34,561 nucleotides of DNA from Synechococcaceae bacterium WB9_2_112 (GTDB taxonomy: Bacteria; Cyanobacteriota; Cyanobacteriia; PCC-6307; Cyanobiaceae). Positions 8,420 through 13,269 of this stretch are shown in pieces. A model generated the notes under the pieces. The model was not told the origin of the DNA. It saw only the letters and a list, made by a program, of their open reading frames with translations, and ran no database searches. The stretch covers positions 1 through 34,561 of the forward strand of contig RGUW01000005.1 in the NCBI GenBank assembly GCA_010027605.1. Direction: 5' to 3'. Positions within the stretch are counted from its first letter, which is position 1; every line of letters starts with the position of its first letter. The position numbers and the translations under genes were made by a program.

Positions 8420-9575
8420 GTGGACTCCCAGGTGCCGACAGCCATCACCGTGCTGCATACGGCCGACTGGCAGATCGGCAAGCCCTATGGCCGGATCAGC
8501 GACCCCGACAAACGCAGCCGGCTGCGTCAGGTGCGTCTTGAGGCCATCGATCGCATCGCGGCGGCCGCCGCGGCCTCGCAGGCCAGGGCCGTGGTGGTGG
8601 CCGGTGACCTGTTCGATTCGCCCACACCAAGCCCGAGCGACGTGAGCCGTGTGTGTGCCGCCATCGGCCGCATCGGTTGCCCCACCGTGGTGATCCCGGG
8701 AAACCACGACCATGGCGGCCCCGGGAGCATCTGGCAGACGCCGTTGCTGGCCGACGAGCGGCAGCGCCGTGCACCCGGTCTGGCGGTTCTGGATCAGCGC
8801 GAGCCCCTGGAACTCGACGATCTGGTGATCCTTCCCTGCGGCCTGGAGCAACGCCACGACAGCAGCGACCCCTGCGGCTGGCTCAACCGACTCGACTGGC
8901 AGAGCCTGCCGGCGAGCAAGCCGCGGTTGGTGCTGGCCCACGGCGGGGTGAGCGGATTTGCCGGCAGCGATCTCGATGACGACAATCCAAGCGCTCCCGC
9001 CAACCTGATCGATCTGCGGGCCCCCTGGCTGGAGCAGGTCGACTATGTGGCCCTGGGCGACTGGCACGGCTGCAAACAGGTGCATCCCAGGGCCTGGTAC
9101 AGCGGCACCCCCGAAGCCGATCGCTTTCCCCGCCATGCTGACTACCGCAGCGGTCAGGTGCTTGAGGTGGAACTGACCCGTGGGGCCCCAGCCCGGGTCA
9201 GCCCCCAGGCCTGCGGCGCGGTGGGCTGGCATTCGCTGCAGATCGCCCTCAGCGGCGATGGCGACCTCGCGACGCTGGAGCGCCAGGTCGAAATGCTGCT
9301 GGGGGGCCGGGTGGGCTCCGATCTGCTGTTGCTCGAGCTGAGCGGTCAGCTGAGCATCCGCGGCCAGCAGCGGCTTGACGGCCTGCTGCAGCGCTGGGAG
9401 GCCCAGCTGCTGCGGCTCAAACGACGCCTGCGCGTGGGGCTCAGTCCAGAGGCTGACGAGCTGCGCGCTCTGGCCGAGCTGGCCGACGCGACGGCTCGCG
9501 CAGGAACCGGGCAGCGAAACCCTCGACCAGGCCCTGCTGGAGCTGCACCGCAGCGTGAGCGACGCATGCGCCTGA
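8420..9575 (+). CDS. SbcD/Mre11-like DNA repair exonuclease (apparent single-base frameshift near 9,494)
   Basis: A calcineurin-like metallophosphoesterase of the SbcD/YhaO type, expected to cut DNA ends together with the ATPase encoded next. The metal-binding motifs are complete: HTADWQIGK (Asp16), VVAGDLFDS (Asp63), PGNHDH (94-98), LAHGG and GDWHG. The frame from the GTG at 8420 has good coding character until about 9493, then turns into Pro/Arg/Gly-rich sequence with poor codon choice. The +1 frame carries a natural ending (LAQEPGSETLDQALLELHR then SVSDACA and TGA at 9573-9575). That TGA overlaps the ATG of the ATPase. Removing one base gives ~384 residues, normal for SbcD-like proteins. 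As printed, the frame instead reads into the ATPase as a 1273-aa fusion ending at 12241. Confidence 0.85.
9487..9500 (+). other. Putative frameshift position between SbcD-like and ATPase frames
   Basis: Up to about 9493 the frame of the nuclease has G/C-ending codons (GAC GAG CTG CGC ... GCC GAC GCG ACG). From 9495 the same quality appears one base later (CTC GCG CAG GAA CCG GGC AGC). One surplus base in this interval, for example one G of the GG at 9493-9494, would explain the switch. It may be a sequencing error, a natural mutation or a programmed +1 shift. Confidence 0.7.
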
Positions 9576-12241
9576 TCGCTGCCCGGCTGGAGCGGGTGCG
9601 CCAGCACCGGCTGCTGGAGCTGAATTTCGCCCCGGGATTCACGCTGATCGGCGGCCCCAACGAAGCCGGCAAGAGCACGGTTGTCGAAGCCCTGCACAAA
9701 ACGCTGTTCCTCAAGGCCACGGCCAGCGGCCGCGGTGTCGAGGAGCTGCGCTCGCTGACCCACGGAGGTCTGCCTGAGGTGGAGTTGCGCTTTGAGGCCG
9801 CAGGCCTGCAGTGGCTGCTGCGCAAACGCTTTGCCGGCGCGGGGGGCACCTGCCAGCTGAGCAGCGATGGCGGCGACACCCTCCAGGGCAGTGCCGCCGA
9901 AACCAGGCTCGCGTCGCTGTTGCAGGTGCCCGGTCCGGTGGAGGGGCGCCGCATCGCCCAGCTACCCCTGCGCTGGGCCCATCTGTGGGTGCGTCAGGGA
10001 GAAGCGGGCAGCGATCTGCTGGCGGCAGGGGGTGAGAGCTACGACCTGGCCCTGCTGGTGCAGCAACTGCAGGGGAACGGCAACCCGGAGGAGGCCCTGC
10101 GGGCCACCGCCACGGCGCTGGAGTCACCCCTCGACCGGAAGGTGCAGACCCTGCTGCAACAGCGGCTCGACGAGCAGCTCACCGCCACCGGCAAAGTGCG
10201 GGCAGGCTCCCCCCTGGCTCTGGCCCAGACCCGTGAAGCCGAAGCGCTGAACGCGCTGCACCGGGGTCAGGCCCGCCTGGCCGAGCTCGAAGCCGCCATG
10301 GTGCAACTGGCTCAGATCAGCGACCGGCTCGCGGCGATCGAACAGCAGGAGCAGGCGCTCAACCAACTGCAACGCCTGCAGAGCGAGGCCGAACCCCTGC
10401 GCCAACGGTTGCAGCAGTTGCTGAGCGTGCAACGGCAGCAGCAGGCCCTGCAGCAGCAGCGCCAGGCCGACCAGGCCCAGCATGACCGGTTGCAGCAGCA
10501 ACTGCAGCAGCACCGGCTCAGGCTGGAGCAGCTGGAGCATGCGACGGCGGCCGGGCGAAGCCGGCGGCAGGCCCTGGAGCGCAGCAGCAAGACCCTGGCA
10601 CAGCAGCAGGAGCGCGTCTCGGCTCTGCTGGATCTGGCGGCCCTTGAGCGTGAACAGGACCAGCTTCTGGCTCACAAGAGCCGCTTTGACGCGCTGCAAC
10701 AGCAGGCCAGTGCGATCAAGGACCAACTGCAGCAGCTGCCCGCGATCAGCGGTGCCCAGGTGCGCGAACTCCGCCAGGCCGAACAACAGCTGGCCCAGGC
10801 CGAGGCCCGCTGCCAGGGCATGGCAACCCAGGTGGAGCTGCTGGCGAGCACTGCGCCGGTCAGTCTCGATCGGCGTCCGCTCGCGGTCGGGCAACCGGAA
10901 CGACTCGACCACGCTGCCGAACTGAGCCTCGACGGTGGCCGCACTCGGCTGCTGATCAGCCCCGGTGGAGGTCAGGCCATGGACACGGCCGTGGCCCAGC
11001 GCCAACAGGCCCAGAGCCGGCTGCAGACGCTGCAGCAGCAGCTGGGCCAGAGCAGCAGCGATGCCGCCGAGAGCCTGGCCCAGCAACGGCTGGTGCTCGA
11101 GAGCGAACTGGCCAATCTGCGCAAGGCGGCCGCCACGATTCCATGGGCCCGCCTTGACGCCCAGCTGGCCGACCTGGAGCCCCGGCGCCAACGGTTGATG
11201 CGTGCCCTGGCGGCGCTGGGTCCTGACGCCAGACCAAGCAGCAACGGTGTTGAGCTGGCCGCCCTGGAGGCCGAACAGGACACCCTCAGGCAGGAGCAGC
11301 AGGACCTCGCCCAGCAGCAGATCCGACAGGACGCCGAGCTCGAGACAACGGCGCGCGAACGGGACCAGCTGCTCCAGAGCCAGGGGCAGCAGCAGGCCGA
11401 GGCAGGCCGGCTGGCGGGGTCCCTGAGCGCCAACGCCCAGCAGCTGGAACAGCTGGAGCGCGCGCACGGCTCCTCGCAGCAGCTGGAACAGACCCTGGGC
11501 CAGCTGCGGGAGCAAGTGGAACGCCTCAGCGAGCAACTGGCCGCCGTGGAGTCGCCGCTGCAGCCCGGTGGCAGCGACCCCGGGCAGACCCTGCGCCTGC
11601 TGGCCGCCGAAAAGGAGACCCTGCTCACCGGTCGCGGGCATCAGGAGCAGATCTGCCGCAGCCTCGGGGCCGGCGATCCGACAGCCGAGGTGGAACTGCT
11701 GCAGGCCGCGTGGGAACAGAGCCAGACCGAGCGCCAGAGCCTTGAGCGCAGCACCGCAGCCCTGCAGTTGTTGTTGCAGGCCTTTGCGACCGCCCAGCAG
11801 CAGGCGGCCAACCGCTACTGCCTGCCGCTGCAACAGGCCCTGCAGGGCTACCTTGATGCCCTGGCGTTGCCGGCAGCCGCAGCTGCCGCCCTGCAGTTCA
11901 GCCCGCAACAGGGCATCAGCGCGCTGCAGCTGCAGCAGGGTGCCGTGCGATTCGACTTCGGCCAGCTCAGCGGCGGCATGCGTGAACAGCTCAACACGGC
12001 CCTGCGGCTGGCCCTGGCCGACGTGCTGCTCGGGGCCTACGACGGCTGCCTGCCCCTGGTGCTCGACGATGCCTTCAGCAACAGCGACCCCACGCGGCGT
12101 GCAGGCCTGCTGCGGATGCTCGAGCGGGGCGTGCAGCGGGGGGTGCAGGTGCTGCTGTTCAGCTGCACCCCGGCCGACTTTGCTGCGCTGGCGGCAACAC
12201 CGGGCCGGCAACTGAACCTGCCCACAGGCCATGGCCACTGA
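9566..12241 (+). CDS. YhaN/SbcC-like AAA ATPase with long coiled coils
   Basis: An SMC/Rad50-type ATPase of 891 residues, the expected partner of the upstream nuclease in processing DNA ends. The N-terminal half of the ATPase has Walker A GGPNEAGKST (residues 29-38). The central ~550 residues are extremely Gln/Leu/Glu/Ala-rich heptad-like coiled coil. The C-terminal half has the signature LSGGMREQ (801-808) and Walker B PLVLDDAFSNSD (about 831-841). The N-terminal sequence and size resemble YhaN more than E. coli SbcC, and no CxxC zinc hook is visible. The ATG at 9566 overlaps the nuclease TGA in the +1 frame, the usual linkage of such pairs. It is also in frame with the nuclease start at 8420, so automatic calls may show one fused gene. 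Confidence 0.87.
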   Translation: MRLIAARLERVRQHRLLELNFAPGFTLIGGPNEAGKSTVVEALHKTLFLKATASGRGVEELRSLTHGGLPEVELRFEAAGLQWLLRKRFAGAGGTCQLSSDGGDTLQGSAAETRLASLLQVPGPVEGRRIAQLPLRWAHLWVRQGEAGSDLLAAGGESYDLALLVQQLQGNGNPEEALRATATALESPLDRKVQTLLQQRLDEQLTATGKVRAGSPLALAQTREAEALNALHRGQARLAELEAAMVQLAQISDRLAAIEQQEQALNQLQRLQSEAEPLRQRLQQLLSVQRQQQALQQQRQADQAQHDRLQQQLQQHRLRLEQLEHATAAGRSRRQALERSSKTLAQQQERVSALLDLAALEREQDQLLAHKSRFDALQQQASAIKDQLQQLPAISGAQVRELRQAEQQLAQAEARCQGMATQVELLASTAPVSLDRRPLAVGQPERLDHAAELSLDGGRTRLLISPGGGQAMDTAVAQRQQAQSRLQTLQQQLGQSSSDAAESLAQQRLVLESELANLRKAAATIPWARLDAQLADLEPRRQRLMRALAALGPDARPSSNGVELAALEAEQDTLRQEQQDLAQQQIRQDAELETTARERDQLLQSQGQQQAEAGRLAGSLSANAQQLEQLERAHGSSQQLEQTLGQLREQVERLSEQLAAVESPLQPGGSDPGQTLRLLAAEKETLLTGRGHQEQICRSLGAGDPTAEVELLQAAWEQSQTERQSLERSTAALQLLLQAFATAQQQAANRYCLPLQQALQGYLDALALPAAAAAALQFSPQQGISALQLQQGAVRFDFGQLSGGMREQLNTALRLALADVLLGAYDGCLPLVLDDAFSNSDPTRRAGLLRMLERGVQRGVQVLLFSCTPADFAALAATPGRQLNLPTGHGH

Positions 12242-12734
12242 GCCGAGCCATACCCTGCGCCCCGCAGAACCGGGGGATCTGGCGGCCCTGCTGGGTGTCT
12301 ATGCCGCGGCGGTGCGCAGCCAGTGCCCCGGTCTCTACAGCCCCGGGCAGGTCGAGGCCTGGGCCAGACACGGCTCACCCGAAGGGGCGGTGGCCGCCAC
12401 GATCAGGCGCGGGTTCACCCTGGTGAATCCGGTGGCCCCCGGCGATGGACGCATCGCCGCCTTTGCGGTGCTCGATCCGGCCGATCGCCTGGCCCTGCTC
12501 TACTGCGACGGCCGCTGGAGCCGCCAGGGGCGCGCAGCCGCCCTGGTGCGCGCCCTGGAACAACGAGCCCGCCAACAGGGTCTGCACCAGCTGCGCAGCG
12601 AAGCCAGCCAGCTGTCAAGACCGTTGCTGCTGCGGCTGGGCTGGCAGATCGAGGCCAGCGAAACCGTGCCCTATGCCGGCGTGCTGTTTGAGCGCTGGCG
12701 CATGATCAGGGCTCTCACCGCCGGCCATGGCTGA
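12231..12734 (+). CDS. GNAT family N-acetyltransferase
   Basis: The 167-aa protein opens with the GNAT pattern TLRPAEPGDLAALLGVYAAAV and has YSPGQVEAWA, typical of the YafP-like branch. A central strand IAAFAVLDPADRLALLYCDG precedes the acetyl-CoA loop, here RQGRAAALVRALEQRARQQG (motif A region, about residues 98-117). It ends with LLLRLGWQIEASETVPYAGV, as in small-molecule acetyltransferases. The acceptor is unknown. It starts inside the ATPase gene (11-base overlap), and its own stop overlaps the Nif11-cupin start by eight bases, so it belongs to the nuclease-ATPase transcript. Confidence 0.86.
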   Translation: MATEPSHTLRPAEPGDLAALLGVYAAAVRSQCPGLYSPGQVEAWARHGSPEGAVAATIRRGFTLVNPVAPGDGRIAAFAVLDPADRLALLYCDGRWSRQGRAAALVRALEQRARQQGLHQLRSEASQLSRPLLLRLGWQIEASETVPYAGVLFERWRMIRALTAGHG

Positions 12735-13269
12735 AGCGCAGCTGCAGCAGTTTCTGGAGAAGGTCCGCCAGCTCAATGCGTTCGTGGCCCTGAGCGAGGC
12801 CGACCCGACCGTGCGCGCCGCCCTGGCCGCCTGCAGCAGCCACCACGAGGTGGTCAACCTGGCCAGCCGCTTCGGCTTCGCCATCGGCCGTCGCTGGGGT
12901 GAACCCGACGCTCAGGTGGGGGGAACGGCCAGCCTGCTGGGGGGCCAGCTGCCACCCCCCGGCCAGGAGCACGTCTCAGTGCTGCTGAGCCATGACCACC
13001 TGCGGCTTGAGCGCATCCATTCGAACCAGGCCTGCAGCCCTGAGGGCTTCTGGTACGACCAGAGCGAGCACGAATGGGTGGTGCTGCTGCAGGGCAGTGC
13101 CCTTCTCGCCCTGGAGGGCGAGGCCCAGCCCCGGGCCCTGAGCCGTGGCGACCAGCTGCTGATCCCCGCCGGCACCCGCCACCGCATCGAGGCGACGGAT
13201 CCCGATCCAGGCACGGTCTGGCTGGCCCTGTTCTGGCCTGGAGACTCCACCTCCGGGGCGACGCAGTGA
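12727..13269 (+). CDS. Nif11 domain / cupin domain fusion protein
   Basis: The 180-aa protein joins two domains. Residues 1-60 match the Nif11 domain: QLQQFLEKVRQLNAF, then ADPTVRAALAA and VVNLASRFGFAI. Residues ~80-175 form a cupin: GFWYDQSEHEWVVLLQGSA, then LSRGDQLLIPAGTRHRIEAT. The EHE and the late TRHR His provide possible metal ligands. Nif11 domains are best known as leader sequences of ribosomal peptides in cyanobacteria, but here the following part is a folded cupin, so this is not a peptide precursor. The interdomain stretch has QVGG and LLGGQ, reminiscent of leader ends, but cleavage is not implied. The partner or ligand is unknown. Confidence 0.88.
   Translation: MAEAQLQQFLEKVRQLNAFVALSEADPTVRAALAACSSHHEVVNLASRFGFAIGRRWGEPDAQVGGTASLLGGQLPPPGQEHVSVLLSHDHLRLERIHSNQACSPEGFWYDQSEHEWVVLLQGSALLALEGEAQPRALSRGDQLLIPAGTRHRIEATDPDPGTVWLALFWPGDSTSGATQ

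Follow-up and report, generated by a model that had tools for sequence, protein, structure and literature searches.

The window (the whole 34,561-nucleotide stretch analysed here) contains a single open frame of 1273 codons with a GTG start that runs from 8420 to 12241 on the forward strand, bearing out the original prediction that a nuclease frame stays open into an ATPase gene. Residues 1-356 (8420-9487, + strand) correspond to an SbcD/Mre11-like nuclease in its normal frame, with phosphoesterase and capping domains, as judged by the Pfam Metallophos model, identity to the congeneric genome G005 and a fold match. Residues 383-1273 (9566-12241, + strand) correspond to an intact SbcC/Rad50-like ATPase of 891 amino acids that retains its own conserved ATG at 9566, as judged by AAA_23, conservation of the ATG and identity to G005. 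Between the two lies a joint of 26 codons (9488-9565, + strand; residues 357-382) with no counterpart in the nuclease frame of relatives and a coding score near zero. The native C-terminus of the nuclease persists as a remnant in the +1 frame (9489-9575, + strand; translated as RRLAQEPGSETLDQALLELHRSVSDACA and a stop), where the second C-terminal helix, matching the C-termini of congeners, is followed by a TGA at 9573-9575. The breakpoint, at which the window is 35 bases shorter than G005 and G004 according to MAFFT and BLAST, falls within 9486-9490, its exact site being uncertain by a few bases. Downstream, positions 12231-13269 encode a GNAT acetyltransferase and a Nif11-cupin protein; this region also aligns with G005 and G004.

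Family membership was examined with domain models and structure prediction. The window nuclease scored 33.4 bits against PF00149 (Metallophos; cut-off 21.5), identifying a calcineurin-like phosphoesterase domain. It scored 56.9 bits against the curated SbcD model TIGR00619, under the cut-off of 77.65, and we therefore refer to it as SbcD-like rather than SbcD proper. A model of the G005 orthologue (pLDDT 93.4) adopted the Mre11/SbcD fold with its capping domain (Z about 21-25 against Mre11/SbcD chains), most superpositions covering some 280-300 residues and most alignments ending near residue 337. The ATPase carries a Rad50-type N-terminal domain (AAA_23, 40.2 bits; cut-off 27) and a C-terminal Walker B lobe (SbcC_Walker_B, 27.5 bits; cut-off 27). 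The nearest nuclease was that of G005 (90% identical over residues 4-356), and the ATPase was 84% identical to its G005 counterpart. The locus resembles the SbcD-SbcC (Mre11-Rad50) pair in that a calcineurin-like nuclease gene precedes an adjacent gene for a P-loop/coiled-coil ATPase, and in the predicted fold of the nuclease's orthologue. It differs from that pair in the divergence of the window nuclease, which falls short of the TIGR00619 cut-off, and in the absence of the C-terminal helix pair from the window copy.

Comparison with five other genomes of the genus, which to judge from the names of related MAGs is probably freshwater, revealed separate nuclease and ATPase genes in every case, lying in different frames with a 10-base overlap. 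Separate genes, with the ATPase ATG at the matching place, were found at all 15 other junctions that were read. Between matched flanks the window has 78 bases, compared with 113 in both G005 and G004 (35 more) and 122 to 128 in the other three congeners. DNA alignment with MAFFT placed a single clean 35-base gap after 9488 relative to G005 and G004, while BLAST against G005 placed 25 of the missing bases after 9486 and 10 after 9490. A loss of 35 bases, one short of a multiple of three, makes the nuclease frame skip its own stop and enter the ATPase frame. The same shift would follow from one extra base, which explains why a single surplus base had been proposed from the window alone; that proposal is contradicted by the alignment and by the count between flanks. 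A true fusion had been expected to show itself in sister genomes of equal base count with alignable fusion-frame residues, whereas all five congeners differ in base count and carry two separate genes. Identity to G005 was level around the breakpoint (0.90, 0.90, 0.91 and 0.89 in 90-base bins). Over the approximately 12 kb aligned to G005, the gap at 9486-9490 was the only one judged to be a net frame-changing indel inside a gene, setting aside minor differences right where the nuclease gene begins (8409 and 8426).

The C-terminus of the +1 frame in the window, ending in TLDQALLELHRSVSDACA before the stop, matches that of the G005 nuclease, which ends in TLDQALLELHRSVGDACA before the stop. The TGA at 9573-9575 gives a 10-base overlap with the ATPase ATG at 9566-9568, so that the prediction of a natural C-terminus whose stop overlaps the ATPase start proved correct. 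Over 9488-9565 the +1 frame scored 0.39 bits per codon and remained open through to this TGA. The merged frame over the same 26 codons scored -0.02 bits per codon, where true-frame windows average 0.27 (sd 0.30), in line with the poor coding character originally ascribed to the joint, although 41 of 212 true-frame windows scored as low and the coding statistic alone is thus weak.

The missing bases encode a conserved part of the nuclease. Among 49 full-length nucleases from several phyla the C-terminus was conserved: L384 (G005 numbering) was invariant, and P355, V360, L364, A380 and L381 were nearly so. AlphaFold places these residues inside two C-terminal helices of the G005 nuclease, 355-370 and 375-391. 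From their position, and from a published account of Mre11-Rad50 (PMC3175470), the two helices are probably the element that binds the Rad50 coiled coil. The helix-loop-helix is absent from the merged window protein, its first helix being deleted and its second out of frame. A model of residues 1-622 of the merged protein predicted that the nuclease and the ATPase N-lobe both keep their folds, the joint between them being disordered (residues 364-379 below pLDDT 50; first ATPase strand at 384); this model is a rough guide only, its alignment having mixed nuclease-only and ATPase-only rows.

We also searched more widely for fused relatives. None of 80 named relatives carried a fusion: in 79 the nuclease frame met a stop no more than about 290 bases from the match end, and one (L110) reached its contig end before the stop could be read. 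The P-loop pattern was unmatched in 27 of these loci, 26 of which were judged by the nuclease stop alone, the 27th being the truncated L110. In a search of 300 family genomes, 179 of which had a match, no other comparable open frame occurred among the matches listed; the window's open frame measured 1310 codons in this search, and the next largest among the matches listed was 694. An ancestral true fusion was considered and rejected. G015, G023 and G033 seemed fused by open-frame length but hold stop codons at their junctions. An Mre11/Rad50 fusion common to related genomes was not found in any of the five congeners or the 80 named relatives, one of the latter being unreadable at its end.

Taken together, these data indicate that the merged frame arose by accidental loss of 35 bases and is neither a programmed nor an established fusion (probability roughly 0.9). 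The proposed course of events starts from separate, neighbouring SbcD/Mre11-like nuclease and SbcC/Rad50-like ATPase genes, the state seen in all sampled relatives. With 35 bases near the 3' end of the nuclease gene missing from the assembly, the nuclease frame, as read from the assembled bases, passes its own stop and continues into the ATPase frame. If the loss is real in cells, it would yield a nuclease-ATPase polypeptide of 1273 residues that lacks the presumed Rad50-gripping helices at the nuclease C-terminus, and perhaps also a separate ATPase from the kept ATG. Two genes have thus been merged in the assembled sequence, and perhaps in living cells as well. A false fusion by error or mutation, as originally suggested, was right in kind and wrong in detail, the change being 35 missing bases and not one extra. 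Several points weigh against an accidental loss: identity to G005 is level on both sides of the breakpoint, with no sign of a chimeric join, 35 bases exceeds the usual single-base assembly error, no obvious repeat at the joint accounts for the gap, and a normal pN/pS would fit a selected fused protein equally well.

Selection on the two genes was compared along the window and G005 branches by parsimony counts, which were small, with G004 as outgroup. The pN/pS of the nuclease was 0.19 on the window branch and 0.18 on the G005 branch; the corresponding values for the ATPase were 0.33 and 0.32. Relaxed selection on the window branch was thus not seen at the level of these small counts. The unchanged pN/pS, together with a +1-frame C-terminus that still matches relatives, indicates that the event is recent or artificial. 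A chimeric join of two strains was rejected in the absence of any identity step against G005 at the breakpoint, and a repeat-mediated deletion was not supported, with about one base common to the joint and the G005 flanks as read from the alignment.

As to the cause of the accidental loss, a recent mutation or strain variant has about an even chance. The other half of this reading, to which we assign a somewhat smaller but still substantial chance, is a local error of the draft assembly, in which case the cells do carry the 35 bases and both genes are normal. The window, contig 335, belongs to a draft genome (G000) of 2.35 Mb in 460 contigs that is 73% complete; this draft state and its further internal frame breaks, one of them of 31 bases, favour an error, as does the unrelaxed constraint on the window branch. 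Assembly is a documented origin of spurious frame breaks (PMC11017572). Level identity to G005 across the joint argues against an error, as does the lone position of this gap as a net frame-changing indel judged in-gene over the approximately 12 kb (8409 and 8426 aside).

The background of such breaks was estimated from G005 frames that do not overlap and that have an orthologue within a sampled 0.56 Mb of G000. This analysis revealed two clear internal frame breaks in G000 (1 base and 31 bases) in addition to that of the window among 141 comparable G005 frames (about 2%), and one in G005 (L251) among 139 comparable G000 frames. In the rows compared, G005 was the intact partner in 10 and G000 in 9. 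The clear G000 breaks were a 755-aa gene, a 542-aa gene and the window, the last seen through an antisense frame displacing the sense frame; frame ends, antisense frames, the messy pair L141 and pairs present in both directions were excluded. At L219 (G000:C102, 12934) one base is missing relative to G005 from a conserved 755-codon frame, and at L194 (G000:C25, near 10124) 31 bases are missing, again relative to G005, from a conserved frame some 540 codons long. The window break is therefore near the background rate of the G000 draft and of a kind common enough in such drafts. It is like the spurious or recent frame breaks of draft assemblies (PMC11017572) in being a non-triplet indel in a conserved gene at close to the background rate, and unlike them in being longer, at 35 bases, than a simple base error would lead one to expect. 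The main lesson is one of caution: a 1273-codon frame spanning two repair genes can look like recoding or a purpose-built fusion, whereas sister genomes show a plain 35-base loss.

A real and very young deletion could instead have produced a working SbcDC-like fusion, in which direct attachment of the two proteins makes up for the missing docking helices and is kept by selection; we consider this improbable. Mre11/Rad50-type fusions in nuclease-ATPase order are described from several organisms (Mimivirus R555, a Clostridium kluyveri plasmid, Deferribacter and others; PMC3175470), and the window frame resembles them as one polypeptide with the nuclease N-terminal and the ATPase C-terminal. Both halves of the window frame are open and under normal constraint, and the nuclease and ATPase N-lobe are predicted to fold in the 622-residue model on either side of a disordered joint; these features would suit a working fusion. 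Most of the fusions in that account, however, keep a region as long as capping plus helix-loop-helix, which the window frame, known from one sequence in a single draft genome, has lost. The arrangement was not found in any relative examined (among the matches listed, for the 300-genome family search), and the former C-terminus can still be read in the +1 frame, so that any fusion would be young. If the deletion is real and the protein works, the locus would show, as an experiment of nature, whether covalent attachment to Rad50 can stand in for the Mre11 helix-loop-helix that otherwise holds the nuclease in place.

We regard as highly improbable the originally suggested programmed +1 frameshift, by which the cell would make the nuclease alone as well as a fusion: the +1 frame does lead into a natural C-terminus, but the main frame contains no stop there at which to pause or induce a shift, no slippery run was evident by eye in the codons at 9476-9580, the congener nuclease frame just ends at its TGA with the arrangement found in no relative examined, and the product of a shift would be without the deleted helix all the same. 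The locus thus lacks the marks of programmed frameshifting (a zero-frame stop or pause at a slippery site, conserved in relatives), slippery motifs being judged by eye only.

A second, divergent nuclease copy was present in three of the six genomes of the genus (L030 on G000:C49; L055/L125 on G002:C13; L041 on G003:C125), accompanied by an ATPase on G000:C49 and G002:C13. The G000:C49 nuclease is 50% identical to that of the window and clusters with those of G003:C125 and Umea1_bin-0606. The tetranucleotide make-up of this contig lies toward the far end for the genome (32nd of 35 contigs of 3.5-7 kb), which makes contamination possible. The second copy is a paralogue or a contaminant, and the pair on G000:C49 might serve as a backup for the damaged window copy.

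The exact 10-base overlap of nuclease stop and ATPase start was found within the genus at L028, L029, L031, L032 and L033. It recurs in several Synechococcus and other loci (L078, L086, L089, L096, L106 and L112), which suggests that the two genes are translationally coupled.
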